The notes below the pieces were generated by a model. The model had not been told where the DNA came from. It made no database searches and saw only the letters and a list, made by a program, of their open reading frames with translations. Positions 1 through 64,000 of a stretch of 64,000 nucleotides of DNA are shown in pieces. The position numbers were made by a program, and so were the translations under genes. The DNA is taken from NCBI GenBank assembly GCA_030247885.1, contig JAPDRO010000011.1, forward strand, positions 248,001-312,000, written 5' to 3'. How positions within the stretch are numbered: the stretch's first letter is position 1; each line of letters begins with the position of its first letter. The stretch comes from Taxawa tesnikishii (nom. ined.). Taxonomy: Eukaryota; Ascomycota; Dothideomycetes; Dothideales.

Positions 1-650
1 AGACGTGTTTGCTGATCAGCTACACGACAAACAAGTTTCCTTCAGAATACGTCCCGACTGTGTTCGACAACTATGCCGTGACCGTCATGTGAGGCTGATC
101 TGCAATCTGCAAATGCTGAGCCGCGGCTGATCTCGGTGCCACAGGATTGGAGATGAGCCATACACACTCGGACTTTTCGATACCGCAGGACAGGAAGATT
201 ATGACCGACTGAGACCGCTGTCCTACCCTCAAACCGACGTCTTCCTCATCTGCTTCTCCGTCACATCTCCAGCGTCATTCGAGAACGTGAGGGAGAAGTG
301 GTTTCCGGAGGTCCACCACCATTGTCCCGGTGTCCCATGCCTTATCGTCGGCACACAGACTGACCTGAGAGACGATCCTCAGGTCAGGGATAAGCTCGCC
401 AAGCAGAAGATGCAGCCTGTGAGGAAGGAGGACGGCGAGCGGATGGCGAAGGAGTTGGGTGCGGTCAAATACGTTGAGTGCTCGGCGCTTACACAGTTCA
501 AGCTCAAGGATGTCTTTGACGAGGTAAACAAACTTCATTCATTCGTTATTTCTTACCATTCTAACACAAGCGACATAGGCGATCGTCGCGGCGCTAGAGC
601 CACCAGCAACAAAGGACAAAAAGAAGAGCAAGCATTGCATCATCCTCTGA
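1..650 (+). CDS. CDC42: Cdc42 Rho-family GTPase, 3' part
   Basis: Partial at the window start. Three exons are visible: 1-88, 145-523 and 579-650, with introns 89-144 (GTGAGG...ACAG) and 524-578. The first reading frame starts at base 3. Effector region motif [15 protein letters not shown], switch [19 protein letters not shown], nucleotide-binding TQTDLRD and CSAL are all visible. The Rho insert carries [11 protein letters not shown]. The end is polybasic KDKKKSK followed by the CAAX box CIIL; the final Leu predicts geranylgeranylation and membrane attachment (family knowledge). The residues match Cdc42 better than Rac. Role: switch for polarised growth, septins and actin at hyphal tips. The P-loop lies outside the window. 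Frame is intact over both introns. Very sure of the family. Confidence 0.96.
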
Positions 651-1743
651 TGGAGGCTATCGGACTGCTGGGCTTTGGGCGTTCTGTAAGCGACCTTTCT
701 ACCTCGTCTCTTCATATCGGGCTTTACACGCGCCTTTGGGAGTCATGGCGTACCTAGGCGCGTTTGGCTGGCCGTTGGGTTCAGTACTGGGTGTTTCTAG
801 AGCGGAACTCTTTACAGACCTTTGAATCTCTTTTGACATTGAATCGCTTCACCATTCGCAAGAGAAAAAAAGAGGATCTCTTGGTTGGTCCCGGAATATG
901 CGAGAGAGGTGTTCTTCTGAAACCAACGCTGGTGGGCGATGAGTGGCGACTACTTAGCATAAGGTATTGAGAGTAAGCACCCTGGGTCCTCTCACCCTCT
1001 CCTGTCTCTTATTTCCATTCACTCGATTGACTTGGTGTTGTGCACACCTTCAATGGGAGTAACAAGAAATGTGGCAAACAGGATTAGCTTCAAAGAGGGC
1101 CGTGTGTTTGAGGAATACAGTGCAGTGCTCTCGAAGCCGTCAGTTGAATGGACCGACTATCATCACAAGGCAGCAGCAACCCTACCTCATCTGCACACTT
1201 GAAAGGTATGCTGGTCTGACATGTGTTGCGCTCGCTCCCAGCACTTAGCGGCCATCCACTTGCAAATGGCAATAAGATTTCCAGCAGACAATCGAAACTG
1301 ACCGACAGCTTGCTGTCACAATTCAGCAGCACAGCCTTACGGGTACCTTAGACTTTGTACCCAGGTCTCCTAGGGCTGAAATAGCTGCCGCAAACCGTTA
1401 TAGTCAGTTATATGAGGGCTGATGTCTGGACAGACGTAGGGTAGCGTATGCGAGCATGGTCTTATCGCTGCTGCCACGCAATGGCAGCCACTGGTCTTTT
1501 TGACTGACTGTTGAGAGTACTGAGTGGCAAGATGGTTTTGGAGGACCCTTTCGGGCCGAGCAGGCGAGTTTCACATTCGGTCGTTGATGTTTTAAGGTGC
1601 CAAGCCACAAGTAAAGAGGTGGAAGAATCGAGCTCACTTCGCGGTTCACGAACTACACACGTACACAAACATTCCCACTTTCTTCTAATTTTGTACTCCG
1701 AACCGAAACCACACGTCTCTAGAGGATCCAGCTCGAAATAGCC
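651..1743. other. Intergenic stretch, no gene seen
   Basis: The 3' flank of CDC42 and 5' flank of the next gene. Short open frames on both strands have no recognisable motif and no supporting splice structure. I see no repeat or RNA gene. Confidence 0.6.
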
Positions 1744-4737
1744 ATGCCCGAACCGACTCGCAGAGTCCGTGAGGATGTCTCCTCCAAGCCGAGAGCTGCG
1801 CCGCTGCCACGCTCTGCCTCTCCTCAGCGTGCAAACACTTCAGGAACGGGCCTGCTAAACAGAAATCCAGGACCGAACGCATTCGCTATGAGGGAAGAAG
1901 AGACCAACAGACAGAGACTCAGAGGCAACGCCTTCTTCCAAGAAGAGCACGCACGCCGTAACGCAACTCCGCCGACCGCAATCCACCCGCTGCTGCGCGG
2001 CCGCCTCGAAGAGTCCTCGTCTCCCATCGACGCGTTGTCCAAATACGCACTTGACCGCGTTTCTCAGGTTACCACTTTCTCACCCTTCATCAGCCAAGGC
2101 AATGGTGAGACCTTCCATCGTCCAGCTTCTTCTCCTTCAGAGCCCCTCGATCTCATTCCCGAGAGCGCGGAAAACGCGATTCCCACACACCGTGGCGTCA
2201 TCGAGGAGAAGCGCGAGCAATCTCAGTGGAACGCGTCTGGCATAACCGACGAGCGTACACCTGTCTACATGCCTACCCCCAAGCTTGCGTTCGAGGAGCC
2301 AAGTTGGCGTCGCAAGTCTGCCGACAAGAGAGCTGATCATGAGCGTTCGGCCAGCCCCAGAAGAGGCTTTCTTGATCGTCTCAACACTAGTCTGGGCTTC
2401 AGATCATCGACGAACGTAAACCAGATCCCGTCGCCCACCGTCTCTGTTCCACCTAAGGCAGCGGCTACGCTGGGCACTTCGTCGCCTTCGAAGGGCCTCA
2501 GCCTGAACCTCCTCACTCGCTCGCCTTCGAAGAAGAAGGGCCCGGGCAACCAGAGCCGCCAAAGTGACTTCACCGACGCCAGTTCTTCCACCCCTACGTC
2601 CGTCAAGCAGTACGAGTATGTCAACGACAGAATATATCCCGTTCCAGCGGGCCTCACCACGCGCAGCAGAAACAACGACAGCTACTCTCGTCCAACGACC
2701 GAAGCCAAGCGTATCGTTTCCGATACGCACATCAGTCCTCCCCTAGATCACAGCAAGAGCAGTCCGGCGATGGCGGCGTCACTCGCTCCAAGTCCCTGCG
2801 CGACACCGAGCGCGTCCACGAATCCCACGTCGACAGGAACGGTCTGCTGAAGTATTACGACAAGCAGTCTCCGCCAACCCCACCGACCAAGGACACCCCG
2901 CCCGAGGTCAAGGCTATGTTGGATGGCATGCCGCACCACCGTCGCAACAACACGATTGCGGATGAATCGCCGAGCAAGCGCGGCATCCGTCTTTCCGCGG
3001 ATGCGTATCTCGGTCCAGAGCACGCCGGTTCAACCAAGGATGGCGGCGTCGCGTACCGTGAGGCCCCGCACGTGGTCGAGAAGATGGGTAGCGTGCAATC
3101 CATGTATGGCGCTGTGGTTGATCTGGGCGGCGCAATGAAGGAGGTGATGGAGACGAAGATGATGGAACCCAGCACGCCGGAGGGCAAGATGAGCGGACTA
3201 CTGGACAACGGGCAGCTTCCTCAGACGGTGTACAAGAGCATGAGCTACCAGGTCTACTCGCCGAGCGTATACAATGCCGCATTCGGGCCAAGTCCAGACC
3301 GTGAGAGTGGATGGAAGAGCGGCGAGGTGAGTTGACTCTTTCCCTAATGGTTGCACGAAACGAAGAGTGAAAGCTTGCCACGGCTTTCTCCATTACATAT
3401 CCTCACTTCACCTCCACCTTTCCTTCACCTGTCCCATGACACAAACACTGATGCTAACATGACGTCTTTCCGCAGTCCTACACGCGTCCCTCACTACCTC
3501 GCTGCAACCCCACCTCACCCACCACCTCGCGCGGTAACAACGACTCCAGCAACCACAGCACCTCCAACAACTCCCCCAACAGCGCCGGCGTCTCTTCCAC
3601 CAGCGGCAGCATCCCCGTCCGCCTCGACCTTTCGCCCCACGCCGCCGCTGCCACCGCCGTCTTTCACTCCAACAACGACAACGACAACGGCAACGGCCCA
3701 GCTTCGCCCAAGCGCGTGACATTCCAGTCCCCCCACCCGACCAGCTCGCCCTCAAGCACCGCTTCTCGCGCAGCGACGTGGGCGCGGGAGCCATCGGTAC
3801 CGAAGCCATCGGAGACGAATACCGCCACCTCATCGACAAGCTCACCCCATTCAGCACCAGCCCTCGTGCAGAGCGGCACGCGCGTCGCAGGACCACCCTG
3901 CGCGAGAGGTTCGAGAGCGGATCCTGCAGCGGCGACAGCCGTGAGGAGAGCGACGGAGGAGGCTTCTTCAGGCACGGCAGCGCGGTTCCGAGTCCCCTGC
4001 ATCTGGGCGGAATGGGTGGTGTGAGAGACGTGGGAGGGGATTGGCAGGGTCGGGCGGGCCAGCCGACGCCGACTAGCACGTTCATGGTTGCGGAGTTGGG
4101 GCATGAGATGGGCGTTGCGATGGATAAGTTGGATGATAGGATCGGAGAGATGGGGAAGAGTGTTGGGGGCATCAATGCGAAGGTGGGAGCGCTTTGTGAC
4201 GACGTCAACGCGCTGATCGACAGCAGCCGGCGGACCAGCGAAGGCATCAGCAAGCTCGATGAGAGGATCGATGGCGTGGAGGCAAAGGTCGATGGCGTCA
4301 ACTACATGGGCAGCAAGATCAACTTCAACGTTGAGCAGACCACGACGCTCGCTCTCACGATACAGGAGGTGGGCAGGAAGCTGGACAAGCTCGGGGAGAT
4401 GGAGAAGAGAATGGTCAAGCGCATGGACGCGATTGAGGAGACGATGGATGCGAAGATGGACGATATTGGTGAGAAGTTTGGACAGAAGATGGATCAGATG
4501 CTCAACGACTTCGGCGAGAGGTTCGCTGCGAGAGTGGAGGCTGCCATGGCCAGCTTCGAGGTGCAGGGCAAGCAGCAGAGGTTGGAGATGGTTCAGCGGG
4601 ATGCTGTCGGCGTTCGCAACACTCGTCGCCGCGACGACGGGGACAGCGAGCCAGACAAGCGTGGAAGCATCAATGGCGATCCTGTCAAGCGCAGCTTCGG
4701 TGGAAGAAGTGGAAGAGGTGGAAGAGGTGGGCTGTGA
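1744..4737 (+). CDS. Uncharacterised Ser/Pro-rich protein with C-terminal coiled coil, two frame breaks
   Basis: Not recognised. Start chosen at the first ATG (MPEPTRRVRED). Exon 1 is 1744-3326 and exon 2 is 3476-4737, with intron 3327-3475 (GTGAGT...CCGCAG, branch GCTAAC) in phase 0. The first two thirds are disordered and rich in Ser, Pro and Arg with SPSK/SPTK phosphosite-like motifs. The last ~230 residues form long amphipathic helices of heptad type (repeats such as MDKLDDRIGEMGKSV, KLDERIDGVEAKVDGV), ending in an Arg/Gly tail. The frame needs one extra base near 2763 (CCGG) and one in the C6 run 3729-3734; with both, the two exons give exactly 948 residues. The frame after the second break continues as PPPDQLALKHRFSRSDVG. 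Cytoskeletal or scaffold function is only a guess from the coiled coil. A host gene with consensus errors is more likely than a pseudogene, since both parts remain open for hundreds of codons. Confidence 0.75.
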
Positions 4738-4870: not shown

Positions 4871-4898
4871 CTTTCCTGGGTAGTGGGTAGTAGGTGGT

Positions 4899-5668: not shown

Positions 5669-7983
5669 ATGGGTGATTGCCCAACTACTCCGACTGCCCC
5701 TGTGGTCTACCAGGCGCATACTTCCACTCTCCGCGATCCATCCGCCGACGACGGCAAGGCCGACAGTGACAGACACGGCACGCCTACGGGAACCCCTCCT
5801 CCTCCTACGCGCCTGCGCCTAGATCAGCAGCCATCCGCCGTTGCAGCAGTCGACGCGCCTATATCGATAGTCGCCCAGAATCACAACAGTCAAGCCTTTC
5901 TTACCACTGCCCTTAATACTACCACCGGTACCGCACTCCCTCGCATAACTGCTACCCACCACCCCTCAGTCCCGCAGCCGCAACCTGCTGTCACAGTCCG
6001 GCCATACAACACTCCTGCAAGTGCCGGTCTCCATCTCCGAACCGACTTTGCACCTCCAAGCAGCGCACCAAATCGCATATCCAGAGCATCACCCGTTAAA
6101 GAAACGCCGTCAACGGCTTCATCACTTGCGCCATCGATGACCTCGCCCATACCTATACCAGGCAGCACTCTGTCACCACAGAGGCCACATCTGCGAACCA
6201 CGCTCTCCACAATGTCAATAGCGAGCATGGCAAGTTCTCTGTCGCCCGCTTCCGCCCTGCCTTCACCAGCTCTGGCAGCCCTCACGGACATCACACCTTT
6301 ACCATCACCACTTATGGCCTCGGACTCGTCGCCGGGCCCATGGAGAAGGGCATTCCGCACCAGCTCTGGCGAACACATGATATCACGCTCAGCATTCAGC
6401 GACGATGCCATTCCCCGGCCGAGCGGTTCCTTGCAGCCGATCTCTCCCTCCTCTCCACCTAAGAAAAAGAAGGGCTATGGTAGTCTCGCGTCCACCGCGG
6501 TCGAGGCGCAAGCTGCAAACGCCCAGGCCGCACAACACAACAAGAAAGTCTCCCATGGCAGGAATCGGAGCATCAGCGAGTTCGTGCCGGAGGCCCTCGT
6601 CAACACCCGACCTAGACATGTCACAATAGGTTCGGGGAACGCACCAGACTTCCAGATGCACAGAGAAGAGTACTTGGCAGCGCAAAGGGGACTAACACAG
6701 CCACCGAGAGATCCTGCACTCACCCTCCCAAGCCCACCGCCGAGCAACAAGAGTGTTACGGAGAGCGAGATCGACGAAGAAGAGCAGCCGCAGACTCCAC
6801 CTGATGAGCCAGGTGTCGAATACCTGACGGTGAGCTCACCAAACATGAACTTGAAGAAGCGGAAATGGCGGACCGTGAGGCCGTTGGGTCAAGGCACGTT
6901 CAGCAAAGTGCTGCTCGCTACTTCCCAAAGGTTACCCCGCATACACCGTACACCGAGGAGAACTTGGATCCTCATCGACTGGTTGCGATCAAGGTGGTGG
7001 AACATGGACCTGCTGGTGGTGCGGACGAGGAGCGCATCGAGACCAGCCTGAAACGCGAGGTTGAGATTCTCAAGAAGGTTTCGCATCCGTCGCTCGTACA
7101 TCTCAAGGCGCTGGAGTTTGCGGACGACAGAGCCTTGCTCGTCCTAACCTACTGTCCCGGTGGTGACCTCTTCGATTTGGCGAGTGAACATCGCGATATC
7201 CTGACCCCGTCGCTGGTGCAAAGGTTGTTCTCGGAGTTGGTCAGTGCAGTGAGATATCTTCACAGTAACTGGATCGTGCACCGAGACATCAAACTCGAAA
7301 GTGAGTGCTGTTTCGTGTTCCTACCGTCTCCGCTGTCTTCTACCCCCTCTCCCCAAAGCAACGAACACAAAAAGCCCAAAAGCGACATGAAACTAAACCA
7401 ATCCCTCCCAGACGTCCTCGTCAACGTTCCCGCCGCGCAGCTCGCCCGCATGGAATCCCCCACCGCGCACCCACGCCCGCTCATCACCCTCACGGACCTG
7501 GGCCTCTCCCGTCAGATCCCGCAACCGCCCGCTTCACCGCTCCTCTCGACGCGTTGCGGCAGCGAAGACTACGCCGCCCCCGAAATCCTACTCGGGCAAC
7601 CCTACGACGGCCGCGCGACCGACGCGTGGGCGCTCGGCGTGCTGCTGTACGCGCTCATGGAAGGCCGGCTGCCCTTCGATGCGCCGCCCGGAAAGGTCGA
7701 CCGGAGCAGGAACACGCACCGGATCGCGAGGTGCGACTGGATCTGGTGCCGGTTCGGCGACGAGGACGGCGAGTGGGACGTGCAGGGCAAGGAGAGCGAG
7801 GCGTGGAGGCCGGCGGGCGAGGTCGTCGAGGGTCTGCTGAAGAAGGTCAGGATGGGGAGGAAGAGCTTGGAAGAGGTGGAGAGGAACGGGTGGGTGGCCA
7901 AGGGTGTTGACGTCGAGGGAGGACTGAAGTGGAAGGAGGAGGATGAGGAGGGCTGGAGTCGGAGGGGAGTGCCGAGTGAATGA
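5669..7983 (+). CDS. Ser/Thr protein kinase with long disordered N-terminus, one frame break
   Basis: Exon 1 5669-7300, intron 7301-7411 (GTGAGT...CCCAG), exon 2 7412-7983; with one added base the total is 734 residues. Start is the first ATG in the open frame (MGDCPTTP). The first ~390 residues are Pro/Ser-rich and disordered. Kinase motifs follow in order: glycine loop GQGTFSKV, VAIK lysine, GGDLFDLAS hinge, catalytic HRDIKLEN (the intron splits the Asn codon), DLG in place of DFG, and the APE motif in YAAPEILLG, then DAWALGVLLYALM. After subdomain IX the conserved-looking THRIARCDW segment appears. One base is missing at about 6925-6932, between ATSQ and VTPHTPYTEE. Catalytic residues are all present, so it should be active. 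It belongs to the yeast-type CAMK-like kinases; I cannot name an orthologue safely. Substrates unknown. Confidence 0.88.
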
Positions 7984-9051: not shown

Positions 9052-9053
9052 TA

Positions 9054-9228: not shown

Positions 9229-10322
9229 TCAGTATCTAGTGTACCAGCCATCATTCTGAAGGCAAGCCTGGATCCTATCCACCATACTCACAACATAGTT
9301 ATACACTGCATTACTACTGATATGATCCTAAGCATGTACAAGGGCATCTTCCATCCTTTCATGTACAAAGTCATTACCACTACTCCATAGATCCATGCCA
9401 GGATATAGCTAAAAGAGCTGCTTTTTGAGCATAGCCCATACATGCTTAATGGGGTTCAGATCTGGTGAGTATGCAGGCCAGTCTTCCACCAGTTTGATGC
9501 CTTCCTTTCTGAAAAAGCTGCTGTCTTTCTGGCTGTGTGTATACTAGCGTTATCTTGCTAGAATAGCAGGTCCTTATGGTACATAGGAAGTAGGCTCATA
9601 GTAAGAGCATCAATGTATGAGTTTGCTGAGTACCCTTGCCTCTTTGACTCCATATCCCTACGCATAACAATCAATTCAGTCTTGTAGTTGCTATATATGC
9701 CAGCCCATACCATCATACGTATGTCCTTGCTCTTGTTGAATGGTTGAACCTTGTCTTTCTGGTATGCTTGGCCAGTAGCACGCCATACATAGGCAGCTGG
9801 TTTACCAGATCCACGCTCTACAGAGTACTTATCTGAAAAGATGACTTTTAGCCAGTCTTCAACACTCTAGTCTTTGTGTAATTCACACCATTCTCTTCTC
9901 CTTTCAGCTAAGGCTTCTGACAACAAAGGTCTCTTCTTGGCAATCCAATCCTTGATGCCTTGGTCCTTTAGAACTCGGTAGACTGTAGCATGGCTGCAAT
10001 CTAGCTGGAGATCCTTCAAAAGCTGGCCATAGTTGTGAAATGGATATTTACGCGCATAACGCACAACTGTACGCTTTGTGCGCTCTGTACAAGCTTGTGG
10101 ACGGCCTATGCGAGGTTTGGAGACACCGTGTAGTCGCTGAGAGGACCTTTTGATAGTAGTACTAATGGTACTGGCTGTAAGGTTGAAGATCTCGCGTATT
10201 TGACGCTGTGGTATACTAGCAATAGCCATTCCAACGATCTGATTTCTTGTAGCTGGTGAGATCTCAGTATTGCGACGTCTATTACGCGGTATTACAGCAA
10301 GAGCACGAGTTTGTGGCGCCAT
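9229..10322 (-). pseudogene. Tc1/mariner transposase, inactivated
   Basis: Starts MAPQTRALAVIPRN at 10322 and ends with TGA at 9229-9231; about 364 codons once one base is added in a T5 run. The N-terminal ~130 residues form the helix-turn-helix DNA-binding part (PQRQIREIFNLTASTIS; GRPQACTERTKRTVVRYAR). Then the DDE_3-type catalytic core: FSDKYSVERGSG (first Asp), FxQDNASIHTARK (second Asp) and SPDLNPIKHVW, where the usual Glu is Lys. Stops TAG fall after HKD, in LLF*QDNA, in KQLF*LYP and in VHA*DHI; each fits a CAG-to-TAG or TGG-to-TAG change. A fossil copy, not a host gene. The open N-terminal part alone (151 codons) could still be translated. Confidence 0.9.
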
Positions 10323-13282: not shown

Positions 13283-14547
13283 TCAATGCTCTTCCTTCGA
13301 CCTCCAATCCCCTACCCCTTGCGGACCAAGCGTCTGGCTTGTTTCCTCGTCAATGTGAACTTTGAACGCCTTGGTGGCCATGCCATAGCTCGTCTTGACT
13401 GCCTCACTCGCGTATACACGCATTTCCTTCTCGTACGCCGCCGTCACTCCTTCCTTGGAGCCACCAGCCTCTCCCAACAATCGTCCGAGCAGCGCAGAGT
13501 CTCTCACCGCCGTATTGGCACCAATCCCACCAGCAGGCGTCATCGAATGTGCTGCATCACCAATGACGGTGACGCGAGGATTGTTGGGCCATTCAGGTAC
13601 GCCGCTGGGCGTTGAACAGGTGATCTTCCAGAAAGCTGCTTCTGACTCGACCAGGTTCTCGAACAAGGGCTTGAAGCGTTTGTCCCAACCTGCCGTAAGT
13701 GACTTGGCAAGGTCGGCTGCCGTCTTTCCAACGACCGTGTAGTCGTCATTGGGCGCCTTGATCACTCCGGGCGATCCAACCATTGTCCAACCAAATTGGA
13801 CGTTGGGGTCATCCATATCGTCCGGCCGCACGTTGGTGATGACCCCGACCTGGCCGTCAGCTTTGGTGTTGTCAACGATGCGGAAGACACCCTCCCCAAT
13901 CCTCTGAATGCCGTCGTTGGCGCTTGCCCATGTATACCGCGGGCTCCCGTGTCGTAGACCTTGAGACGGCCACCAGATAGCTGTTGAGCAACATGGGAAT
14001 TGATTCCTTCGCCACCGACAAGCAACGAGCCTTCAACTGACTTCGTTCCATCGGCGAAGATGGCCTTCACCCCATCATCTGTCAACTCATACCCCTTGAC
14101 GTTCTTGCTGAAATGGACAAACTCCTCGCACCCTTCCATGAACAAGTTCCTCATATCGCCCCGCGCAATACCGATAGTCTTGCCCTCTCGCGACGTGAGC
14201 TTCTCACCACCGCCGCCGCCGCCACCACCAGTCCCCTTGCCGTCGCTGCCGCTACCCGGCGCGTTCTGCTCCGTCTGCTCACCCGTAACCGCATCGAAAG
14301 CCGCGAACCCGCTACCGCCCGTCTTCCCACAGCGATCCCAGAACTTCCGGAACGCCGCGGGCTCCAGCGCCGACTCGATGGCGTCCAAGCCTTCGGCGGA
14401 GAGCCGCAGGCGGTACCCCTGGCCTCTGAACGCGAGGGAGGCGTCGCGCTCGTAGATGTGGAACGGGATCCCGGAGCGCAGGAGGGAGCGGCCGAGGAGG
14501 AGGGAGGCGAGTCCGGCCCCGGAGATCAGGACGGGCTTTTGTGCCAT
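13283..14547 (-). CDS. FAD-dependent monooxygenase, one frame break
   Basis: Class A flavin monooxygenase (PF01494 type). Start ATG at 14547. The N-terminal dinucleotide fold is GAGLASLLLGRSLLRSG followed by YERD; the second FAD motif is VIGDAAHSMTPAGGIGAN near residue 320. The substrate-side central strand HGQAPTTAFRGLG then breaks: a G4 run (13894-13897 on the plus strand) should be G5, after which the frame continues EGVFRIVDNTKADGQVG. With that base, 421 residues, a normal length for the family. Residues ~105-115 are a Gly run encoded by a GGY repeat (plus strand ~14204-14237), unusual inside the fold. No intron. Such enzymes hydroxylate aromatic or polyketide compounds; substrate unknown. 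No biosynthetic cluster is visible around it. Confidence 0.87.
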
Positions 14548-15398: not shown

Positions 15399-18300
15399 CT
15401 ACCATCCACTACCTCCCTCTTCAGCGTTGTCGAACTCGATCCATTGCCACTCCTCGCTCCGATCTACAACCTCAACTCTCATTCTTCCTTGCTCGTCAAT
15501 CCCCTCTTCGGGGTGCACTAGCACACTCGCACCGATCGCATGCGTCTGTGCTCTGCTACTGATCGGAAGCTGATACTTCAACACGCCTCTGACGATGAGT
15601 TCGAAGGGGAACTGTAGGACGCGCTCCCAGCGCTCGGTGCCTCCCATTTCGGTCTTGTTGCCCGGGTGTGGCAGCCGCAGCTCGCCGACCGAGAAGTGTG
15701 GATGTCGCTTGATGGGCGAGCCCTCGAACGTTAGAGCTTGGTCGAAGTGAAAGATGCGACCCAGGAGCATGGTTTGTGCGTCGCCTTCGCGGTCGTCGAT
15801 TGGATTGGTGCCACGGTCAGGTGGCTGCCAGTGGCCAGAGGGGTCCTGCCAATCGCTGTCTGCTACTCTGGGCTGGCTCCTTCGTACCCTGCGCCGACGC
15901 CTGCTTGTTGTTTCAAGCCCGTCGCCAAATCCATGCTCACGCCAGAACTTGCTGGAGCCGACATGCTTGCTTTTGGCGAAGACATTTACGTCCATGTCCA
16001 TCACGGTAACACCAAGGACGTTGGGGTTCACCGCACCGACCAACAAATCCAACATGATCTCCTGCTCGCTGGCGAGTACATTTTGTATTTTCTTGACCTC
16101 CACATCGTACAACGGTTTGTTGGACATGACAAGGAAGCCCACTGCGCCCATGACGATCAGCACGATGACGATCAGGCCAAGCATGCAGCCGCCGAAGCGG
16201 CTCAGCCACGACCTCTGCCGGACACCGTAGTAATCGATGGAACGAGCGCTTCCACTGTTGATACGATGGGGATGCCTGATACTCCTCGAAGTCCGTACAG
16301 ATCCAATCAAGGGCGTCCGTTCGTTTCGCTCGTCATCCGCGCCATCACCGTCAAAGTCGTACTGAGACAAATCGCTCTTCTTGGTCCAAGGCCCGGAAGG
16401 TCTGCGTTGGCCGCTTTGTGTACTTCTTGGGGTGTTAGGCCGCGATGAGTGTCTACCAGGATTGCCCAGATTCGTGCGTAGTTTGGAAGCTTGAGTGAAT
16501 GGCGAGTCCTCGCTGTAGAGTGAGGCATGACTGCCACCAGCACGACCAAGTCGACCAAAATGCCTTGGATGAGCGCGCACGGTGCCGTTGCCAATATCTG
16601 TAGGACTGTCCAGGGCATTGTAGGGATTGTTGGAGAACTTCATACTCCTTTTCCCTGCTACACGGTGAGTGTCCATAACACCGCCGTATCCACGAGCGCC
16701 ACGGTGTGTCTCTGCTTGACTGTGCGCAGATGTCGCGCTTGGCGTCCGAGAATGATGGCGAGGTCGGTGTTGGGGCTCGGGTGGATTCGACTCGTAGACG
16801 AAAGTTTCATCGGAATCCGATGAATTAGCTTCGTTAACTGCGTTGGCCACCCGTTGTTCGAAGATATCGGCTTTGGAAGAAGCTTCGTGACAGAACATGT
16901 TAGTGCTTGATTGTGCGTGCGCTGAAGACTTGCAAAAGAACCGATGAGAAGCGAAGAAACTTGCAAGGGGATCATTGCTGTCCTTTTGAGGTGCGAACGA
17001 CTGTCCGAGACTGGCCGAGATACTCTGCCGTCCCACAACAGTCTCCTCGAACATTACCTTGTGGTAAGAGGAAAGAATTGACGCAAGCGAGTGACGATGT
17101 AGTAAAGGTGGCATACCGGTACCGTTGTTGATCGAAGGAGCCTTGCGAGAAGCTCTCTTCCGCTCTTTCCTGGGCCTGATTGTCTCATTGCTCGGTTTTA
17201 ACCTGATACTTCCGCCAACATCCGCTGGACCTGTCGCAGATCTGTCTCCCAGGCCGGCGTTGAGGGCGGTCTGTGGTATTGAGGCGACTACCTCTGTTTC
17301 AACTGTCATGTTCCTAACCCCATCTGCCTGTCTTGACTTTGCTGATGATAATGGCGTGTACTGGTTTTTGCCGGTACAGTCTTTGGCCTCGGTGCCGTCG
17401 TCATCCTGTATTGTTGCTTTCTTCCACGCTCATCGCTCTTGTTACCCTCGCTTTCGCTCTCGCCAATCTTGTTGGACTTCTCCATGCTCTCGTCGCCTTT
17501 GTGTTCGCGGATGCTTCGTCCATCATCGTCGGATGACCGTCCAAGAGGTTTTGGGGTAGCGGGGCTGCGGAAAATAGATTAGCGCGGACCGAGTTCATGC
17601 GTGTCAGTTGGACAGGGGTTGCTTGTGGTTTCGCTATACAAGTTCGTGTCATGTATACGTCACTAGTATAGAAATTCCCCAGATGAAGCTAATGTAGGAA
17701 CCGAAGGTGGAGAAACACGTGGGCTCAGTGAATCGCTTACCTTTGGGCAACGGAGGAGTTCGCTGCTAAGATTGCTGATGCCGGTGGTGTGTTTTCCTCG
17801 ACTGTTTCCAAACTAGGTTTAGGGCCGCTCGGCCCTCGGGAAGGAGCTTTGGTGTTTGCTTGCAGCTGGTCGTCTTTTGCACCACTCTCGGAGTTGACAA
17901 CACTCATTGGAGGAGTTGCCGTAGAAGGTGTGGAACTTTGAACTGTGATTGTCGGTGTTGGGCCAGGCTCAGTCTTGCTCTTGGCGAGTAACGAATTTCT
18001 TCTCGAGCTAATTGACGGCGGTGGTGATTTTATCCGTGGCGAAGCCGACCAGTGCGGTGTGTTCTCGCCAGATCCCACTCCTGAGCGCTGCGCTCTAGGC
18101 AACCGTGACAAGGCTTCGGTCACTGAACCTGGGTGCAGCTGAGGCACGCTCGTCGCGGACAGAGCTCGCTGGATGGATGCGGCAGAAGGCACCGTGGATG
18201 TTGTTGGTGTAAGCGTAGGTGGGCGGCTAGGGCTTGCATCGTGGCTGTTTTTCCGTGACCTCAATCCCCCTGCTCGTGTTACAGTCTGTGGTGTTTCTTG

Positions 18301-19085: not shown

Positions 19086-20961
19086 ATGCTGGCACGTGTG
19101 CCCGTGATTCTTTGGCCTCACCTGACATGGCGTTATATACTGGCCTCGGGCTTCACTGTATACGCGGTAGCCTGTTTCATACGCGGATCACCTCTTCACT
19201 CCTCTAATCTGCCTGAATATACTGGGCCTTGTTCGGTTGGAACGATCGATATAGAAGCTCCGTGCGAGCCGCGAACCGTTAGCGACTTCACGTTCAAGGA
19301 GACGGGGCAGCCCGCATTCCAGGTGGGACTATCATAACGCAGCATCCAAAGCCGTTGGGTGGATTTATGTACCTTCTTTGCTCTGTTTCTCTGTTTTCCC
19401 AGGGCAGAGATTCTTGGAGGAAGGAGTGACCCTTTGCCAGCAGTGTAGTGTACTACACTTGCCTTGTTTAGACGTTCCGTTTGAAGCTCGATCACCAACC
19501 TCCTTTTGTTCTTCTCCTTCGTACCACCAGACCGTTAACCTATACTTCTTCTCTGTAGCTCGAAACAGTCCTTTTCTCTCTCTACTGTCCATCCATTAGA
19601 GGCGCCCAATCCCGTAAACCCAAGCACTACTGGGTTTCCAAACCCATAGCATTGATCTCAGAGGGCTATGCGCGCTCTGCTCATATCAACAACTTCCTCA
19701 CCAACAACCTCTTCACCCTTGGCCTGTGGGTTCATCCCCGCCGCTGTTGATGTGCCGCTGAACGCAAACCCTCCAGTCTTGCGCCCAACTCCGAAAGTGG
19801 ACTATTGGCCCAAGGAAGAGCCGTCGGTGAGGGCTTTCCAGTCGTCGTGCTTTCGCATGGCATGGCCAGCTCCCGCACCAGCTATTCACAGTACTGCGCC
19901 GAGCTTGCCAGTCGCGGATACGTGGTCGCGGCTGTTGAGCACAGAGACGGTAGCGCGCCCGGCAGCGTGATCATGGAGATTGATGGCACGAAGAAGAGAG
20001 TTTTTCACATCACTCCCGACCAACTGCAGTACGTTCGATTCCCCACCTTGGCAGATGTATATACACATTTCCGCACGTACAGCTCCCGACTCTCGCAACA
20101 GACGCAAGGATTCGCCACCCGACGTCGAAGGCCTGAAAGCAGCACAGCTCGGCCTGCGCCAAGCTGAAGTCGAGGAAACAGTTCGTGTTCTCCGGAACAT
20201 CAATAAAGGGGCAGGTGGCCCGATTTACGATCACAATCCTCGGCGCGAGGGTTCCGATCTGGCCAGTTGGCACGGGCGGCTGGCGACGGACGACATAACT
20301 GTGGTCGGACACTCCTATGGGGCCACGCTTGCCCTCCAGACGCTCAAAGATGCGCCATCGAAGAAGCTGCCTATCAAAGGCGGTATCATACTTGATCCAG
20401 GCAAGCAGAGCGGCCCATCGAATGACATTGTTGATGTGCCAATCTTGGTATTGCATTCAAATTCCTGGTCAAAAAAGCATTCCGTTTTCTACAGTCGGCC
20501 GCACTTTGACGTCGTCGGAGATCTGGTGCAGGGCGTGTTGGATAAAGGCGAAGCTGCCTGGTTCATGACTTCGAGTATGTGGATGTCCCGCCTCATCTTC
20601 CCAATACGTCACACCCCGTCCCTCGACTTCTTTTGTTCCCTTCCCACTCACAGAGATCCCTCACTGACCCGTCCCAGTCGATACAACGCATCCCTCCGTG
20701 ACTGACGCACCCCTTATCGAGCCCTTGCTGCTTAGCTGGACCACAGGCGCTACTATTGACGTATATAAGGGAGTCGACATGTACGTCAGGGTGTCGGAGG
20801 AGTTTTTACGGTTCCAGCGGACGGGAAGAAGGACCGGTTTATTGGCGCAAACGGTCTCCCATCCGAAGTACGATAAAGCGGTGCCAGAGGCGAGCTTGCC
20901 GGAGCAGTGGAAGAATGAATGGCAGGTCCATGTCGCCCCGCGCAAAGGAAGGGAGGGTTGA
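19086..20961 (+). CDS. PAF-acetylhydrolase-like serine esterase, membrane anchored, several frame breaks
   Basis: Platelet-activating factor acetylhydrolase II-like alpha/beta hydrolase. The first in-frame ATG is 19086; exon 1 runs to about 19321 and carries a hydrophobic N-terminal anchor ([16 protein letters not shown]) then [16 protein letters not shown]. Exon 2 begins at 19559 (acceptor CTGTAG) with [12 protein letters not shown]. Catalytic features: [30 protein letters not shown], the nucleophile elbow [14 protein letters not shown] and a late VSHP histidine. The last intron is 20575-20677 and the final exon 20678-20961. Breaks: one base too many near 19727 (TGTGGG), one missing near 19827 (TCGGTGAGG), and an unresolved frame change between 20087 and 20160 that may be an intron with a damaged donor. 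Family members cleave short acyl chains from phospholipids; substrate here unknown. Confidence 0.8.
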
Positions 20962-45401: not shown

Positions 45402-46155
45402 TCATTCGGATACTCTGGATCTCTTCTCCGCCTTGCGGATCTCCTTCCTGAGCTTCCTTATTTCCGTCTCGACCTCACGCATCCCTCGCGCAGCATTTAC
45501 CGCTTCGGGGACAGGATCCTCGATGGCCGATACAAATGACCTCTGACAGCTGCGCAGGGCGGGAGGGACCAGAATGCCGAACCACTGTAGCGGATCCCTC
45601 GGCTTCTTTGGTTCTGCTGCGACCTCTGGCGCGTCGTCCGGTGATCCTGATGCCGAGGCTGTCTCGTCCGAGTCGTTAGCTGGTGGCGGTGTCGATGGAG
45701 GAGTCGGCTGCTGTTGCTGCGGCTCCGTGGAGGTGGTCTTTTGGACTCCCCTTGGCTGCGGGTATTGTGGTGGGTTCCGGTTGTCCGACGTTGGCTTGCG
45801 GTTTGAGTACGGAGATGGTGTACTGTCCGTTCTCTGTAGATTGGATAGACGCCAGGCGGGTGGCTTGCATGCGCTCATCGTAGTAGTCTTGACCGTACCT
45901 GGCACGTGACGGGGACTTGAAGTTCGCCTGTGCTATAGAGAAGAATGCCTACTATGTGGTGAGTCTCGCTTTTGAGCGGATTTGAACGGGGAAGGTTTTG
46001 TTGTAACCTACAGATGAGGTATGTTTGGATAGCTGCTTCTGCGCTTGGTCGTATCGGTCGAGCAGTTGTAGATGCTTCTCCCATAGGTTGTCTAGACGGT
46101 CCTTGAGCGCTTTGACTTCAATGGTTTGCTCATCGTTGTGAACAAAGTCCTCCAT
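45402..46155 (-). CDS. VMA22: VMA22/CCDC115-like V-ATPase assembly factor, one frame break
   Basis: Exon 1 46155-46012 (MEDFVHNDEQTIEVKALKDR), intron 45949-46011, exon 2 45948-45402. Splicing at CATAGTAG joins KHTSS to AFFSIAQANFKSPS and RYGQDYYDERMQATR, the recognised Vma22 layout: an N-terminal helical LDNLWEKHLQLLDRYDQAQ, a Pro/Thr-rich middle, then DPLQWFGILVPPALRSCQRS and a C-terminal coiled coil (EVETEIRKLRKEIRKAEK). Role: ER assembly of the V0 sector of the vacuolar ATPase (known in yeast). Here the sequence has one base too many in an A4 run (CCAAAAGACC, plus ~45740); removing it gives 229 residues exactly. Divergent from the next gene by only 191 bp. Confidence 0.88.
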
Positions 46156-48125: not shown

Positions 48126-48145
48126 GGGTGTGAGGTTTGCTCTAA

Positions 48146-52319: not shown

Positions 52320-55300
52320 CTAATCATCGACAATCTCGTCATTCTCCTCTGCCTCGCTGGAGGAAGAATCGTCCCCAGCGTCAGATCCACCCGCCTCGCT
52401 AGCCGTATCCTCGACCACCGCACTCGAGGACGAGGACGCAGATGCACGTCTCGCAGGATCCAGCTCCGCGTAAGGCGGCGGGGGCTGATATAGCTAATTA
52501 TGCTTGGGGAGCCCGCTCCTGGTTGTGGGATCCATCCTCAGAGTCCGAGCTATCGGAGCTGGGCAGGCTGCTGAGGTCGCTGGGAACCTCGTCGTCATTG
52601 GCATTGGCATTGGCATTGGCATTGGCATTGACAGGGATCGCTTGGCGTGGCACTGCCGGAGAGTCTGGCAGGATAGGAGACTGGGACGAATGGGAGGACG
52701 AAAGAGAAGATGAAGGGCTTGAAGTATCGCCGTGCGGGGTGGGCAATCTGAGGGATTCTATCGACGCCCGGCCATGTTTACCGTGCGCGAACAGTTGGCG
52801 GGTTGGAGACTGGAGAGCATTCCCTTCACCTTCGGAGTCAGGGATTGCTTCTTCGTCATCGCCACCCTCTGCTGCTGCTTGCACGGCATCAATTTCACGG
52901 GCCGCGCTCCAACCCTGTTCGCTTCTGTTTGGGGCCTCCTCGGAACGCCGAGAGGCAATGTCGGCCATCTCAATGTCCTCGCCTTCATCTTCAGTCTCAT
53001 CCTTGACAAAGTCCTCTGATGTCGGGCGCTTTCCTTTGGCCGTTTTGCCCTTACTTCTCGCCTTTCTACGAGCAGTCTGCTTTTCCAACTGCTCTGGTGT
53101 GTATGTGTTCTCCAGCAGATCCAACATCAACCTTATGTTTTCGTTGAAATTATCCGAATCCTGTCCCTGTTTCCTGAGCTGTCTTCGGAGCCTCTTGTAA
53201 ACGGCCTTACGTTCCGCTGTCTTCCACTGGCTGTTCGGAGCCATTTGCGTGGCAACCATCCAGAAGGTGTGTCCGTGGCTATAGGTGCCGGTCTCACTGG
53301 CCTGAATAAGTTCTTGGACGATGGCGTATTGGTCGCCAGGTAGCATCTTCTCAAAGATTTCCTTCGCATCCCGTCTGTCAGTCGACGTCGGCTTTTTCTC
53401 GACTGCTGCGTGCTGGTTCGTGTGTCTTGAGTAGCGGAGTCGGGCTGCGATGATGCCGTTTTGCTCTGACGCCTCTCCATCTTCTTCCATTTTGCAAAAC
53501 ACTGCAACCTATCGCGCGTGCCGCCTAGCTTCTTGGCTACGAAGTTCCACGATATCAAGTCCTTATCCTCAAGCGCGGTCTCGCCAGCCTTGCCCGCCTG
53601 CCGTTGCTCTTCGATGCATTCTTGGACGGCCTGCTCGAGCTCGTTTTCCTCTTCTTCTGTCCAGAAGCCTTCTCGACGGACACCAACCGATGAAAGACGA
53701 GCCCAACGATCACGGCAATCATCGACCCTTCTCCCAACCCTCGCCGCGATGAAGACCCATTTGTTCGGTTTCTCGGCATATGCTTGTTTCAGGATCTCGT
53801 GCTCTTCTTCTGTCCACTCGCCAGTGCTAAGATTGTGATAAAATCGACGGCAGAACCGCTGAAGAGACTTGCGGTTACGATTCGGAAGAGCGGAAGACAA
53901 GCGACTCCATAGCTCCTTGATGTCTCCCCTACCGTTGCTGGTATCCTGTATCTTTTCCGCCAGTGCTGCCTTGGTAAGACGATGTTCTTCTTGGTATTCT
54001 TTGAGAACCTCGTCCACGATGTCGACTTCTTGCTTGATGAAAGTGCCTCTCGAAGGGAAAGGAGTTGCGTTCGCGGTAGCGACTGCTGATGCTGCGCTGG
54101 TACCAGGGCGCTTCTTTGATACTTTATCCGCGACAGGTTTGTCGCTGTCTTTGCGCATCCGCTTTCTGCGTGATCCTGGTTCGGGCACAGGGTCCGGATC
54201 TCTAGTGACCGATGCCGTCGCTTCGTCTGCTGCCACCGCCTCATTGGCTTCGCTTTTGCGTTTTCTGCTTTTTCGGGCTTAGACATAGAAGCTGAATCGT
54301 CTGTAGGGGATGCAGGGACCTCGAAATCTTCGTTGGCCCCTACTCTTTTTGCTGTCTGTTGCCCGGGACTGAGCATGTCATCTGGGCTCTGAGGCTGGCT
54401 GCTGAACCATTGAGCAACCTTTCCAACTCCCTTGGCTCGCTTGTCGTTGACTGGTACAAGTGCTTCTTCGTCGTCGTCTTCCTCCTCCTCTTCTCCCTGC
54501 GGCGCTTGCGCACCGTCCATATTTTGGATAATCAACTCCTCATCTTCCGGCACGCCTTCAACGCCATCGGACACTATCGGCTCAGACTTCTTCTTTCTCG
54601 ACTTACCCGTACTTTTGAGTTTGCCCTTCTCGCGCAAAGGCGCCTCGGCACGTTGCGCCTCAGGCTCGTCGAGTTCTTGTTGGGTCGCTTCTTGCGGTAC
54701 ATCCCTTTCCGAATCCTCATCTTCCACAACTTCCGCAGACAGATTCTCTTTCAGTGAACTTTTGCGCCGACGTTTTGTAGAAGGTCGCTCCTGTGCTTTG
54801 CCGTCCTCCACAGTAGCATTCTCCTGGGATAGCTCGTCTTTTTTAGCCTTTCTCGCCTTCTTAGACTGTCGCATTTTTGTCGCTCCAGAACTCAATGCCT
54901 CTTGCATAACGTCACCCTCTTCTCCTCCGAAATGCTTGCGCTTTCGCTTTTTGGATTTGCGGTTGCTCGCTCCTCGCCCAGCTGCGAGTCCGGAATTGCC
55001 TCTTGCTCAGCTCCTGCTGTCGCTTGCGATGCTCTTCTGGCTTCATCTTGCAACTGTTCGTCGGCGGTGATAGGCAAGGTCCTTCTACGTCGTGCTGGCG
55101 TAGGGTCCAGAGCATCGCTCATTGCGTCTTCCGGCTGATCTGGGATTGATTCCTGAGACTTCCTCAACTTGCGACCCCGTTTAACGTGTCCGGCACGTTT
55201 CTCAAATGGGGTCGCATCCGGCGATATAGGCTTGGTGGGTGACGAAAATCCGACCTGCCTAGCCATGATAGACGACGAGGCCTCCTCGAGCGTATCTGGT

Positions 55301-55687: not shown

Positions 55688-58585
55688 ATGCCAACATCCA
55701 CCATGGACGGAGGCCTGGAAAGAAACTTTCATCATCCGTACGAGCCGTATGACATACAGAAACAGTTTATGAGTGCGCTGTACGACTGCATTAACGATGG
55801 GAAAGTCGGCATCTTTGAATCACCTACCGGTAAGTGGAAGTGCCTGACATCTTTTGAATGGCGATATTCTTACTAACAGCAACAGGTACTGTAAGTATCA
55901 CTGCTCGGTAGGTGTAGTCTTGCTTGAATACTTATGCGGAACAAGGGAAAATCGTTGAGTCTAATCTGCGGTTCTTTGACATGGCTCCGCAATCACAAGC
56001 GCCAGCTCTATGATACACAATTAGCTGCGATCGATGCAGGTGCAGGTACATAGTAAGTCTGATACCTACCTTCTTGACTTTTTACTCAAAGACACCAGAA
56101 AATGAGCCGGAGTGGATGCTTGAGCACGCCCGAGAGGAAAAGAAGCGAAACGCTCTACAAAAGCGAGCTGATCTGGAAGCCAAGCTTGAGGCGGTCAGGC
56201 AAAAGGAACGCAAGGTGAGGGAGAGATATGAAAGTGGCGAACCCTACGCGAAAAGGAGAAAAGTCATGGATGGTAAATCTGGGGCCGAGGACGACGAGGA
56301 ACGGTTTGTTCTTGATGATTATCAGAGCGACGATGAACAGTCAGTTTCTGAAACTAAGCGATCCGGTCCGGATCTGGGATTGTCCAAAGAGACACAGGCA
56401 CTCATGGAGAAACTGGGTTATTCTGGCAGCGTCACCATCAAAGAAGACGAGACAGAGCTGGACGATGAGCTAAAAGTCTTCTTCTGCTCGAGAACGCATT
56501 CACAGTTATCGCAGTTTGTCGGAGAGCTTCGCCGGGTCAAACTTCCGCCAGCACTTCCAGTCGAGGACATTGCTAAACATATCGGGAAAGGCAGCAAGAA
56601 CGGCGCAGAACTCCATGAGGAACTGAAGCATTTGACCCTGGGCTCTCGAAAGAACTTGTGCATCAATCCGAAAGTAGCGTCCTTGAAGCACCCCACAGCC
56701 GTCAACGAGCGATGCCTTGAGTTGCAGCAATCGAATACACCGGCGGATAAGAAATGCCCCTATCTACCCACCAAGGAGAATGAGGCTCTTGTGCTGGACT
56801 TCCAGACACACGCTCTCGCAAAGATACGGGATATCGAGGACTTCAGCGGTCTCGGAAAGAAAATAGGCATATGCCCGTACTACGCTTCGAGGACAGCCAT
56901 CAAACCCAGCGAAGTACTTCACGGCTGTTGATTCACAACCCAGCCTGCACTAACTGATCCGATAGATTGTAACTCTGCCCTATCCTCTGCTTCTACAGAA
57001 GTCAGCCCGCGAGGCGCTTGGCTTGGCTCTGAAGGATCACGTGGTCATTGTCGACGAAGCTCACAATCTTATGGACGCCATTACTGGAACATATACTGTC
57101 GAAGTCTCGCTGGCACAACTGCAGCGTGGGAGAACACAATTGACTGTTTACTTACAGAAGTTCCGCAACCGCCTGAAGGGGAAGAACCGCGTATATGTGA
57201 CCCAAGTCGTGCGCTTGCTCGACTCATTGAGCGCTTACCTACAGGCCAAGAACGCCGACACGAAGGCTGCAGATGATACCGTTCATGTTTCTGATCTCCT
57301 GGCTGGCAAGGGTGTTGACCAGATCAACCTTTATAAGTTGATGCAGTATCTTCAAGAGAGCAAGCTAGCCAGGAAGGTGGAAGGCTATGCAACGCATGTG
57401 ATAGAAGAAAAGCAGAACGCACAGACCGACAATAGGAGTGCGAAGAAAAACCTGGAGCTCACAGCAGATGCTGTTCTGCCTGTCCTTACACACATTCAAG
57501 GCTTCTTCCTGGCCCTGACAAACCCGGACAAAGAAGGCCGTTTCTTTTGCACTTCCGGAGCTAGTGGAGCAGGACCTGCATTGAAGTACATGCTGCTGGA
57601 CCCGTCGGAACACTTCAAAGAAGTGGTGGAGAATGCCAGAGCTGTAATCCTGGCAGGTGGCACAATGTCTCCCGTCAGTAGTACGAGGCTCATGACTTGA
57701 GACTCCGCTAACACCACCACAGATGGATGACTACATACAACAGCTCTTTCCATACTTGCCCGCAGGCCGCATCCGCACTCTGTCCTGCGGACACGTAATC
57801 CCTGCTTCGAATCTTTTCGTCAGTCCTGTTTCGAGGGCACTCGACGGCTCCGAGTTCGACTTCACTTTCAATTCGCGCGACTCGCAGGGGACAATCACTA
57901 AACTCGGCGAGTCTCTAATTCGTCTCGTTGCCACCGTCCCAGACGGCGCCGTCATCTTCTTTCCCAGCTATGCCTATCTCGACAAAGTTGCAACGACCTG
58001 GAAAAGGGGTTCATCGTCCAGTACTTCTCCGATCTGGAGCCGCTTAGAAAAGATCAAGCCCATCTTCACAGAAGGCCAATCATCCAGTGTCGATGAAACT
58101 CTCTCCGCCTACTCTTCAACCATCCAATCGCATTCGAATCGCGGCGCGCTTCTCCTTTCTGTCATCGGCGGGAAGCTCTCCGAGGGCATCAACTTCTCTG
58201 ATCGCTTAGGGCGCTGCGTGATCGTAGTGGGTCTGCCTTACCCTAATCCTCATTCTCCGGAATGGAAAGCCAAGATGGAATACATCGAATCCAAGGCAGT
58301 GTCTAAAGCTGGTGGTGCTTGTACCGGATACGTCAAGGGAGCTGCGAGCAGAGAGTTTGCGGAGAATGTATGTATGCGTGCAGTCAATCAAGCGATTGGA
58401 CGTGCCATCAGACACAAGGGGATTGGGCGAGTATCCTGTTGCTCGACCGGAGGTACAATCAGCAGAGGATACGAGGGAAGCTGCCAGGATGGATCCAAGG
58501 CAGTCTGCGCGGTGCGGAAAGGGAGAAATTTGGAGACGTGGAGGGGAATCTGAAAGGCTTCCTCGACGGGAAGAGGGTCAGGTGA
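55688..58585 (+). CDS. CHL1: CHL1 (DDX11-type) Fe-S DNA helicase, one frame break
   Basis: Six exons: 55688-55829, 55886-55890 (5 nt), 55946-56045, 56099-56913, 56966-57673, 57723-58585. Start [21 protein letters not shown]-like superfamily 2 helicase: Q-motif region [10 protein letters not shown], Walker A ESPTGTGKSLSL assembled from exons 1-3, then a charged insert ([20 protein letters not shown]), [11 protein letters not shown], Fe-S cluster cysteines in KNLCINPKV...ERCLELQ...KKCPYL...GICPYY, DEAH box [43 protein letters not shown] and the final [11 protein letters not shown]. One G is missing in 58418-58421; the frame then gives [20 protein letters not shown]. Total 877 residues. Role: sister chromatid cohesion and replication of structured DNA. 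The exon 3/4 donor could alternatively lie at 56040. Confidence 0.93.
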
Positions 58586-61820: not shown

Positions 61821-61863
<43 letters not shown>

Positions 61864-62347
61864 GGGGTGGAAGTACAGGCGGCCCAAACGTCGCAGCCAT
61901 CGTGGCAGGTACCATTGCCGGCCTGCTATTCCTGCTGGTCTGTTACTTGGCCTTCTGCGCCTGGTTATACCGCAAGCAGCTGCAGCTCTACAAGCAGCAC
62001 GTCGAGATGTCTCAGCGTGCCGCACGCGGCGAGAACAAGCCCACAATCCCCGGCCTCATCCCCGTCAGCGACAGCGAGAAGCCGAGCTCCGAGCGACAGC
62101 GTGTGCAGTTCGGCGGGGTTTACGGCGGATATGGAAACGTCAAGACCAGCACCGAGAGCGCGGCGGGCAGCGGAGGAGGCGTGGGAAGCGTGGTGGCGGG
62201 AGGGGTGGAAGTGGTGGATACAGCAGTCTCAGGAGGAGCAGCAGCAACACGACGAGTGATGAGGAGTTGTTGGGTGGTGCGGAACCGACGTTCTGGGGTA
62301 CAATGTTGGCGCCCAGGAGGAGTTTGAGGGTCATCAACAGAGACTGA
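59630..62347 (+). CDS. Kelch-repeat single-pass membrane protein, two frame breaks
   Basis: Exons 59630-60152, 60201-60278, 60329-62347; introns 60153-60200 and 60279-60328. Start MNEISATAESTPARRRSVFQ. A hydrophobic segment near residue 105 (MYRFGAAAFALAVALPLLQN) may be a signal anchor. Kelch blades: NGTLYMYGGQA, SLFLYGGEFSW, GWYFGGHEDGY, GILLGLAGGTNA, NLYMFGGQNL, GQMVVVGGYVGD. A Ser-rich stalk follows, then (GNN)n, one membrane helix (AAIVAGTIAGLLFLLVCYLA) and a basic cytoplasmic tail ending TMLAPRRSLRVINRD. Missing bases: G4 at 61864-61867 and G4 at 62202-62205; with both, 873 residues. Fungal proteins of this plan are thought to be plasma-membrane sensors or cell-wall-linked proteins (inference). 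The 9-bp repeat is at 61822-61863. Confidence 0.88.
61822..61863. repeat. 9-bp coding repeat GGCAACAAC
   Basis: Four tandem units encoding GNN repeats just before the membrane helix. Confidence 0.92.
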
Positions 62348-62941
62348 GGGGAAGTGAGAGAGACAAGGTATGACCTTGACAAGGGATGAAACGCGGGTTG
62401 GTGGATGACGTGACGAGGAACGAAGAGCAAACGATCTCGAACAATCTCGTACCATGCAAGCTACGGAGGATGTCTGTATGTATGTCTGGCGGCTTTTTTT
62501 TTTTTTTGGCTTCTCTTTTCGGTTGGGCTTTTCTTAATGTATAGATACCATTCTTGCAAAGCAACGATGTATTCATATCAACCAGAGCTTCTATTGACTG
62601 ATGGACGTGAGGATGTCCACTTTGTCCCGTTGGATCTCGTGCAACTTATTTCTTTTCTTCTTCCTTCCAGTCGGCACATCAAGCGCATGGCCGAGCGATA
62701 AGTCCTTGAGGGGGTGGGGTAGGTGATTGCCGATAAGGGAAGGAGGAGGAGGAGGGGTCGGCTACGTCATCGAGTAAACAGTTCGACTTCTTTTACTGAT
62801 CGTGCGCGCATTACAGATTACGCATCGCTCGATATCTTGCTTTTATCGCTGGTTGAATACTTGTTGGATACTTGTTGAGTTTTGGGAATTGCCTAAACAT
62901 AAAGAACAAGTTTTGTAGGAGTAGATCACAGACTGTGAAAG
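62348..62941. other. Intergenic, nothing recognised
   Basis: T-run near 62494-62505 in the 3' flank of the kelch gene, then the 5' flank of the deacetylase gene with a short GGA repeat at 62741-62755. Confidence 0.5.
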
Positions 62942-64000
62942 ATGCCAGCGAAAAAGGTAAACCATGGGAACAAGAACGGATCGCGAAACAACGCTGACTG
63001 TATGTCAATTACAGTACAGTGTTGCATCTCGGTACGCCGACAAGCCAATCCGTCAATCTTGCGCGAAAATTCCATCTCTGACGGTTACAGGTCGACATCG
63101 ACGCCGTGGCCGGGTGGGTAAGAGAAGACCCTTCCTTCTCCCTTCATCAGCTTCCCAGCCTTCTCGCGTGATTGACACAATCTTTTTCCTTTCAGCTTGG
63201 CTCCTACGGCGGCGAAGACTCAACGTCGGACATTTCGCGCGGTCTCTTCGCAGGCTCCATCGGTGTCCGCCGTATGCTCAAGCTCTTCGATAAATATAAC
63301 ATCAAAGCCACATGGTTCATCCCCGGCCACTCGCTCGAGACGTTCCCGGATGAGTGTCGCGCTATCGTCGAAGCCGGTCACGAGATCGGTCTTCACGGTT
63401 ACAGCCACGAGAATCCGATTGCAATGACCCTGGAGCAGCAGACGGCCATCATGGACAAGTGCTACAAGCTGATTATGGAGTTCACCGGGAAGAAACCCAG
63501 GGAATTGTGGCGCCGTGGTGGGAGAGCAGTAAGGAGGGCGCGGAGTTGATGTTGAGGTGCGTTTTGTTGAGCTTTGCTTTCTTCTTTCGCTTCTTCCTCA
63601 CAGGGTTGCCCGAGTTGATGCGAGTGAATGGCGGAGGGAATCGAGGAGGAACCTTGCAATGGTGGGGCAGCGGAAAAGGATCGAGTTTCTGACGGAAATC
63701 ACAGATATGGGTTGGAGTACGATCACAGTTTCAGCCATCACGACTGCCAGGTACGGTCGCCCTTGCACAAGTCTCCATACCAGACGCGGGCCGTGCTGAC
63801 GTATGCTACGACAGTGCTATTGGCTGCGTACCGGTGACAAGTGGATCCCAATTGACTACAGCAAACATCCCGATCACTGGATGAAGCCGCTCGAAGGCGG
63901 CGAAATGACCGGGCTGTGCGAGATCCCCGCCAGCTGGTATCTGGATGATCTGCCACCGATGATGTTCATCAAGAAAGCGCCCAACAGCCACGGCTGGGTC
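62942..64000 (+). CDS. Polysaccharide deacetylase (NodB family), 3' end beyond window, one frame break
   Basis: Six exons visible: 62942-62956, 63020-63031 (12 nt), 63091-63117 (27 nt), 63196-63556, 63705-63750, 63815 to the window end. Start MPAKK, then [13 protein letters not shown] and [16 protein letters not shown]. NodB features: the catalytic/metal Asp in [20 protein letters not shown], and metal-binding histidines in [14 protein letters not shown] (HxxxH pattern). Later [31 protein letters not shown] and [29 protein letters not shown]. One G is missing in the G run 63500-63502; otherwise exon lengths close. No signal peptide, so probably cytosolic and acting on a small polysaccharide or N-acetyl substrate rather than wall chitin; close relatives are often annotated chitin deacetylase-like. 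Substrate unproven. Confidence 0.9.

Follow-up and report, generated by a model that had tools for sequence, protein, structure and literature searches.

Frame changes in otherwise open coding sequences of a fungal contig very probably reflect homopolymer-length errors in the consensus

The question raised by this 64,000-nucleotide stretch of a Taxawa tesnikishii contig (hereafter, the window) is why the reading frames of so many of its genes are broken by single-base steps. The window looks filamentous-fungal, with short GT...AG introns and a gene content that, by Pfam matches, includes VAC7, a Gpr1-like receptor, RFT1, MCM2, a CDC42-like GTPase, a CHL1-like helicase, NIF3, a UBR7-like protein, VMA22 and a Myb/Reb1-like protein; the exact names UBR7, CHL1, Reb1 and CDC42 are presumed assignments that go beyond the family matches. 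These features would suit a member of the Pezizomycotina.

Frame changes and the genes that carry them

We modelled 19 genes comprising 10,825 codons (32,475 coding bases), with the in-frame segments fixed from three-frame prints, and found 21 frame changes in 14 of these genes, a density of 0.65 per kb. At 18 of them one base is missing (a loss, or step of -1) and at three one base is extra (a step of +1); the two-sided binomial P value for this bias is 0.0015 against an even expectation and 0.15 if 70% losses are expected. The single-base indels interrupt coding frames that are otherwise intact, the chosen segments containing no stop among their 10,825 codons. The frame changes, the prevalence of losses and the openness of the chosen frames are direct observations. 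All ten missing-base sites listed in a preliminary description of the window (58418, 30145, 61864, 62202, 40452, 13894, 25048, 25706, 26044 and 3729) are frame changes, and its three extra-base sites (19727, ~24205 and ~45740) likewise fall at frame changes between neighbouring segments; to these we add eight more (2740, 6935, 17369, 19838, 54952, 54273, 53397 and 63500).

The assigned frames are broadly supported by codon usage trained without the tested gene: the assigned frame is the best one in 39 of the 42 flanks, equivalent to 33 of 36 distinct segments given that a segment between two faults is counted twice, and both flanks prefer it at 18 of the 21 faults. The assigned frame fails to score best in two short flanks, of 23 codons in the UBR7-like gene and of 43 codons in the kelch gene, and in the long initial part of an unnamed gene at 38 kb. 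A preliminary six-frame scan of codon usage gave too much noise to be of use. The intron gaps between segments can all be closed in phase by GT...AG introns (19 of 19), under a permissive search that had no chance control.

Five genes show no frame change, namely those for CDC42, MCM2, RFT1, the receptor and an unnamed protein at 46-48 kb. The 3' part of the CDC42-like gene (3..647, + strand) matches the Ras family without a fault, and MCM2 (26945..29536, +) runs through 831 codons in the same condition. In RFT1 (21053..22908, -), a frame change at about 22220 is closed by an intron; this intron (22215-22264, -) is 50 bases long and has a less usual donor, GTTCGT. A frame change at about 20030-20100 in the PAF acetylhydrolase-like gene is also closed by an intron and is not counted as a fault. 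The preliminary description had emphasized hits in essential genes, which was an overstatement: CDC42, MCM2 and RFT1, which are regarded as classically essential in yeast, are intact.

Homology locates only three of the 21 frame changes to within a few bases, those in the CHL1/DDX11-like helicase, NIF3 and polysaccharide deacetylase genes, and at all three the match is weak in its second half. In the helicase gene, the step of -1 is at GGGG (58418..58421, +): positions 2-141 of the Helicase_C_2 profile are matched in one frame, ending at 58418, and positions 140-168 in the next, beginning at 58412, the second piece scoring 18.2 bits, below the curated cut-off. Two alignments flank the same step, that to FANCJ ending at ...IRHKG and a weak one to XPD (E = 0.76) beginning at DWAS.... 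The NIF3 (DUF34) gene steps by -1 at GGGG (30145..30148, -), where positions 92-199 of PF01784 in one frame and 197-242 in the next meet at 30151-30142 (second piece 18.3 bits, below the curated cut-off); one search of this protein against PDB gave no match and another gave one weak match. In the deacetylase gene, with a step of -1 at GGG (63500..63502, +), residues 52-154 of PDB entry 3qbu are aligned in one frame and residues 154-173 in the next, the latter weakly (E = 0.55).

Two further faults have matches on both sides with a gap between them, which brings the faults bracketed in this manner to five of 21. One is in the FAD_binding_3 monooxygenase gene (step of -1 at GGGG, 13894..13897, -), where profile positions 117-240 and 285-347 lie in two frames and codon usage supports the step; PDB matches were found on either side of this fault and none across it. 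The other is a step of +1 at GGGG in VMA22 (45748..45751, -), with positions 17-79 and 90-142 of the Vma22 profile in two frames.

The remaining 16 faults, which have no profile match on both sides, were placed by inspection. Three of them, all steps of -1, are in the UBR7-like gene on the - strand: at CCCC (26044..26047), just upstream of a zf-UBR match and with the 23-codon upstream flank that is not best by codon usage; at GGGG (25706..25709), indicated by the frame prints and codon usage; and at TTTCCCC (25048..25054). Comparison of this protein with PDB yielded no useful alignment across the faults. The kelch membrane protein gene (+) has two steps of -1, both at GGGG, one (61864..61867) outside the Pfam-supported kelch repeats and supported by codon usage, the other (62202..62205) with the poorly scoring 43-codon flank downstream. 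The unnamed gene at 38.4-41.0 kb, which matched no Pfam family above the cut-off, steps by -1 at GGGG (40452..40455, +), its upstream flank being the one not best by codon usage. In the unnamed gene at 1.7-4.7 kb (+), one step of -1 lies within 2568-2848, with CCCC at 2740..2743 as one candidate placed by inspection, and another, supported by codon usage, is at CCCCCC (3729..3734). Just downstream of this gene is a perfect 14-base tandem repeat in 5.8 copies (4898-4978), and a CGGCTA tandem in 7.8 copies occupies 5259-5305.

The protein kinase gene steps by -1 at CCCC (6935..6938, +), between the glycine loop and the VAIK region, with the Pkinase match running from profile position 23 onward in the second frame. 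Steps of -1 at AAAAA are found on the - strand in VAC7 (17365..17369), where the Vac7 profile is matched in the downstream frame, and three times in the Myb/Reb1-like gene (54948..54952, 54269..54273 and 53393..53397), each time with the support of codon usage. The PAF acetylhydrolase-like gene (+) combines a step of +1 beside CCC (19716..19727), with a short upstream flank of 19 codons, and a step of -1 beside GGG/TTT (19831..19838). The GNAT acetyltransferase gene has a step of +1 at CCCCAAAA (24191..24198, -), with Acetyltransf_3 positions 79-138 in the frame after the step and no match before it. A search of a plasmid collection with one gene region gave no match.

Homopolymer runs at the missing bases

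The runs at or beside the 18 losses are G4 (seven), C4 (four), C6 (one), A5 (four) and three-base runs (two), most of these placements having been made by eye within wider free intervals. Sixteen of the losses are placed at G/C runs of at least four or at A5, mostly by inspection; among the homology-pinned sites, CHL1 and NIF3 are at G4 and the deacetylase is at G3. The four-base G/C runs stressed in the preliminary description account for 11 of the 18 losses, but A5 is the run at four (one in VAC7, the others in the Myb/Reb1-like gene) and a three-base run at two.

When the faults were placed blindly by codon usage, the mean posterior mass on runs was 0.058, compared to 0.027 in simulated deletions (P = 0.048 for all 21 faults; P = 0.08 for the losses alone), a marginal enrichment, so that codon usage supports the run association weakly. 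With the chosen placements, the runs read short are 11 of 25 among G/C runs of true length five, none of 10 among A/T runs of true length five and four of six among A/T runs of true length six. On these placements, longer runs lose a base more often, and G/C runs do so from a shorter length than A/T runs. The runs are probably the site of the fault at most of the 21 frame changes.

Long runs are scarce in the coding segments: in-frame G/C runs of at least five number 15 when counted by segment (one of them being the truncated end of the C6 at 3729, which leaves 14), compared to 52.9 over 500 shuffles of synonymous codons (range 36-71); for A/T runs of at least five, the figures are 13 observed and 30.4 in the synonymous shuffle. 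Considering that restoring the faulted sites leaves the deficit unfilled and that A/T runs are scarce too, a natural tendency to avoid long runs must contribute as well. A census of the whole window found two G/C runs and 14 A/T runs of at least six, counts for which no related genome served as a yardstick. The intact genes, which include the classically essential ones, contain only one G/C run of five among them, in MCM2.

Competing explanations for the frame changes

Ordinary introns or misread gene models could mimic frame changes, as they evidently do in RFT1 and at 20030-20100 in the PAF acetylhydrolase-like gene, and the 16 faults without profile matches on both sides leave room for such a reading. 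However, under strict splice signals a fitting intron is found at none of the 21 faults, compared to 12 of 400 control positions; with a longer reach, at one of 21 faults, compared to 15 of 500 simulated ones; and under loose signals at eight of 21, compared to 187 of 500, with no enrichment (the strict scan recovers seven of the 19 known introns and the loose scan 11). At CHL1, NIF3 and the deacetylase, moreover, homologous positions are directly seen to be adjacent across the step, leaving no room for an intron. Because fitting signals are no commoner at the faults than at control or simulated positions, we rejected introns as the cause of the 21 faults and regard this explanation as extremely unlikely. 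Alternatively, the frameshifts could be real and recent, the product of a mutator strain deficient in mismatch repair or of a decaying region in which many genes are losing a homopolymer base. Mismatch-repair mutators favour homopolymer indels and fungal hypermutators have been described; the intactness of CDC42, MCM2 and RFT1 also fits this explanation. Yet 14 of the 19 genes are hit with no stop in any chosen segment and with intron gaps that close in phase, and the affected runs are only three to six bases long as written, whereas the usual mutator targets are longer. The expected number of stops is 6.3 at eight substitutions per indel (P = 0.002 for none), 3.2 at four (P = 0.04) and 1.6 at two (P = 0.21), so that, if the substitution to indel ratio is small, the missing stops are not decisive against decay. 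Genuine decay is represented in the same window by an IS630/Tc1-mariner transposase remnant (9.3-10.2 kb, -), which steps by -1 near TTTTT (9498..9516), a change at about 9500 that is not among the 21, and is matched by the IS630 profile at positions 19-248 and 247-276 in two frames, both below the curated cut-off. This remnant carries three in-frame TAG stops among 285 codons, compared to none among the 10,825 host codons (Fisher P = 1.7e-5), although the contrast is favoured by the selection of the host segments as open frames. In all, we consider real mutation or decay very unlikely.

A third possibility is that full-length proteins are restored by programmed -1 frameshifting, transcriptional slippage or RNA editing at G4, C4 or A5. 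In programmed -1 ribosomal frameshifting, the frame moves back by one base at a slippery heptamer, and the losses described here are similar in requiring a backward one-base move; furthermore, the frames on both sides of the faults are open and coding-like, and the UBR7-like site at 25048 has TTTCCCC. A strict X XXY YYZ heptamer is, however, lacking at the other 17 of the 18 losses; about 0.02 matches are expected per site by chance, which makes the single match unusual. The missing recoding signals are, like the frame changes themselves, directly observed. The runs at the losses vary in base and length, three sites require the opposite shift, no shift is needed at 124 G/C runs of four and 10 A/T runs of five that these genes also contain, and recoding would be required in 14 of the 19 genes. 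Thus, unlike programmed -1 frameshifting, the pattern involves no consistent slippery heptamer or common site, affects many genes and runs in both directions, and recoding of this type seems to us exceedingly unlikely. We give next to no credence to the variant in which the homopolymers have their short, written length in the DNA itself and the fungus still makes full-length proteins from many genes, through slippage or editing that lacks a classical signal. Were the runs real, recoding would occur at many short homopolymers within one genome, a phenomenon of which, to our knowledge, there is no precedent in the literature.

The transposase remnant lies in an AT-richer stretch. Over the two 1-kb windows between 9 and 11 kb, the TpA/ApT ratio is 1.01, compared to 0.66 for the whole window, which is perhaps a trace of repeat-induced point mutation. 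A solitary 5S rRNA gene, away from other rRNA genes, is found at 11489-11608 (+) and differs by two one-base insertions and two one-base gaps from a consensus that is that of the family rather than of a close relative. At 12330-12446 (+), there is a weak match to DUF3425, below the curated cut-off.

Consensus error and its parallels in other assemblies

The explanation that we favour with high confidence is that the frame changes are errors of homopolymer length in the consensus sequence, not in the organism. A sequencing platform that is poor at counting identical bases would leave homopolymers one base short, mostly where five Gs or Cs or six As stand in a row, and occasionally one base too long, and each such error in an exon would shift the reading frame. 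Single-base loss at runs, with all else intact, is the pattern to be expected of homopolymer miscalling. The preliminary description had already preferred consensus error to recoding, a preference borne out by the 18 losses compared to three gains, nearly all of which can be placed on runs, without in-frame stops or recoding signals. The sequencing was probably single-molecule, resembling above all nanopore data that have had no polishing with short reads. Against consensus error, it can be argued that the intact genes include the classically essential ones, which pure error need not spare. Most likely, then, the window presents an ordinary data artefact rather than new biology. Without polishing, the record is an unsafe basis for counting genes, calling pseudogenes or predicting proteins, given that 14 of the 19 modelled genes would appear truncated or split.

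Published accounts describe similar situations. Homopolymers of C and G are reported to be called less accurately than those of A and T, with the length of longer runs being underestimated (PMC8486125); in prokaryotes, isolated, homology-supported frame transitions are expected to be sequencing errors, not mutations (PMC3711429). Systematic nanopore homopolymer indels have been found to shift frames and to persist after read-based polishing, with homologous polishing as the remedy (PMC8011154). The indels in the window shift reading frames in the same manner, but that study started from known reads and covered bacteria, viruses, fungi and metagenomes, whereas the window is known from assembled sequence alone. 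A close parallel is provided by nanopore-only assemblies of the fungus Drechmeria coniospora, in which homopolymers reportedly accounted for most of the errors, with reading frames altered, and about one fifth of the genes were incorrect after long-read polishing (PMC7500977), with over-prediction exceeding under-prediction. As in the window, conserved fungal genes were broken there by single-base homopolymer errors, several open frames together representing one protein. The two cases differ in direction, a point that counts against consensus error here: in the Drechmeria assemblies, over-calls reportedly exceeded under-calls after polishing, so that insertions were the commoner error, whereas in the window losses dominate, 18 to three.
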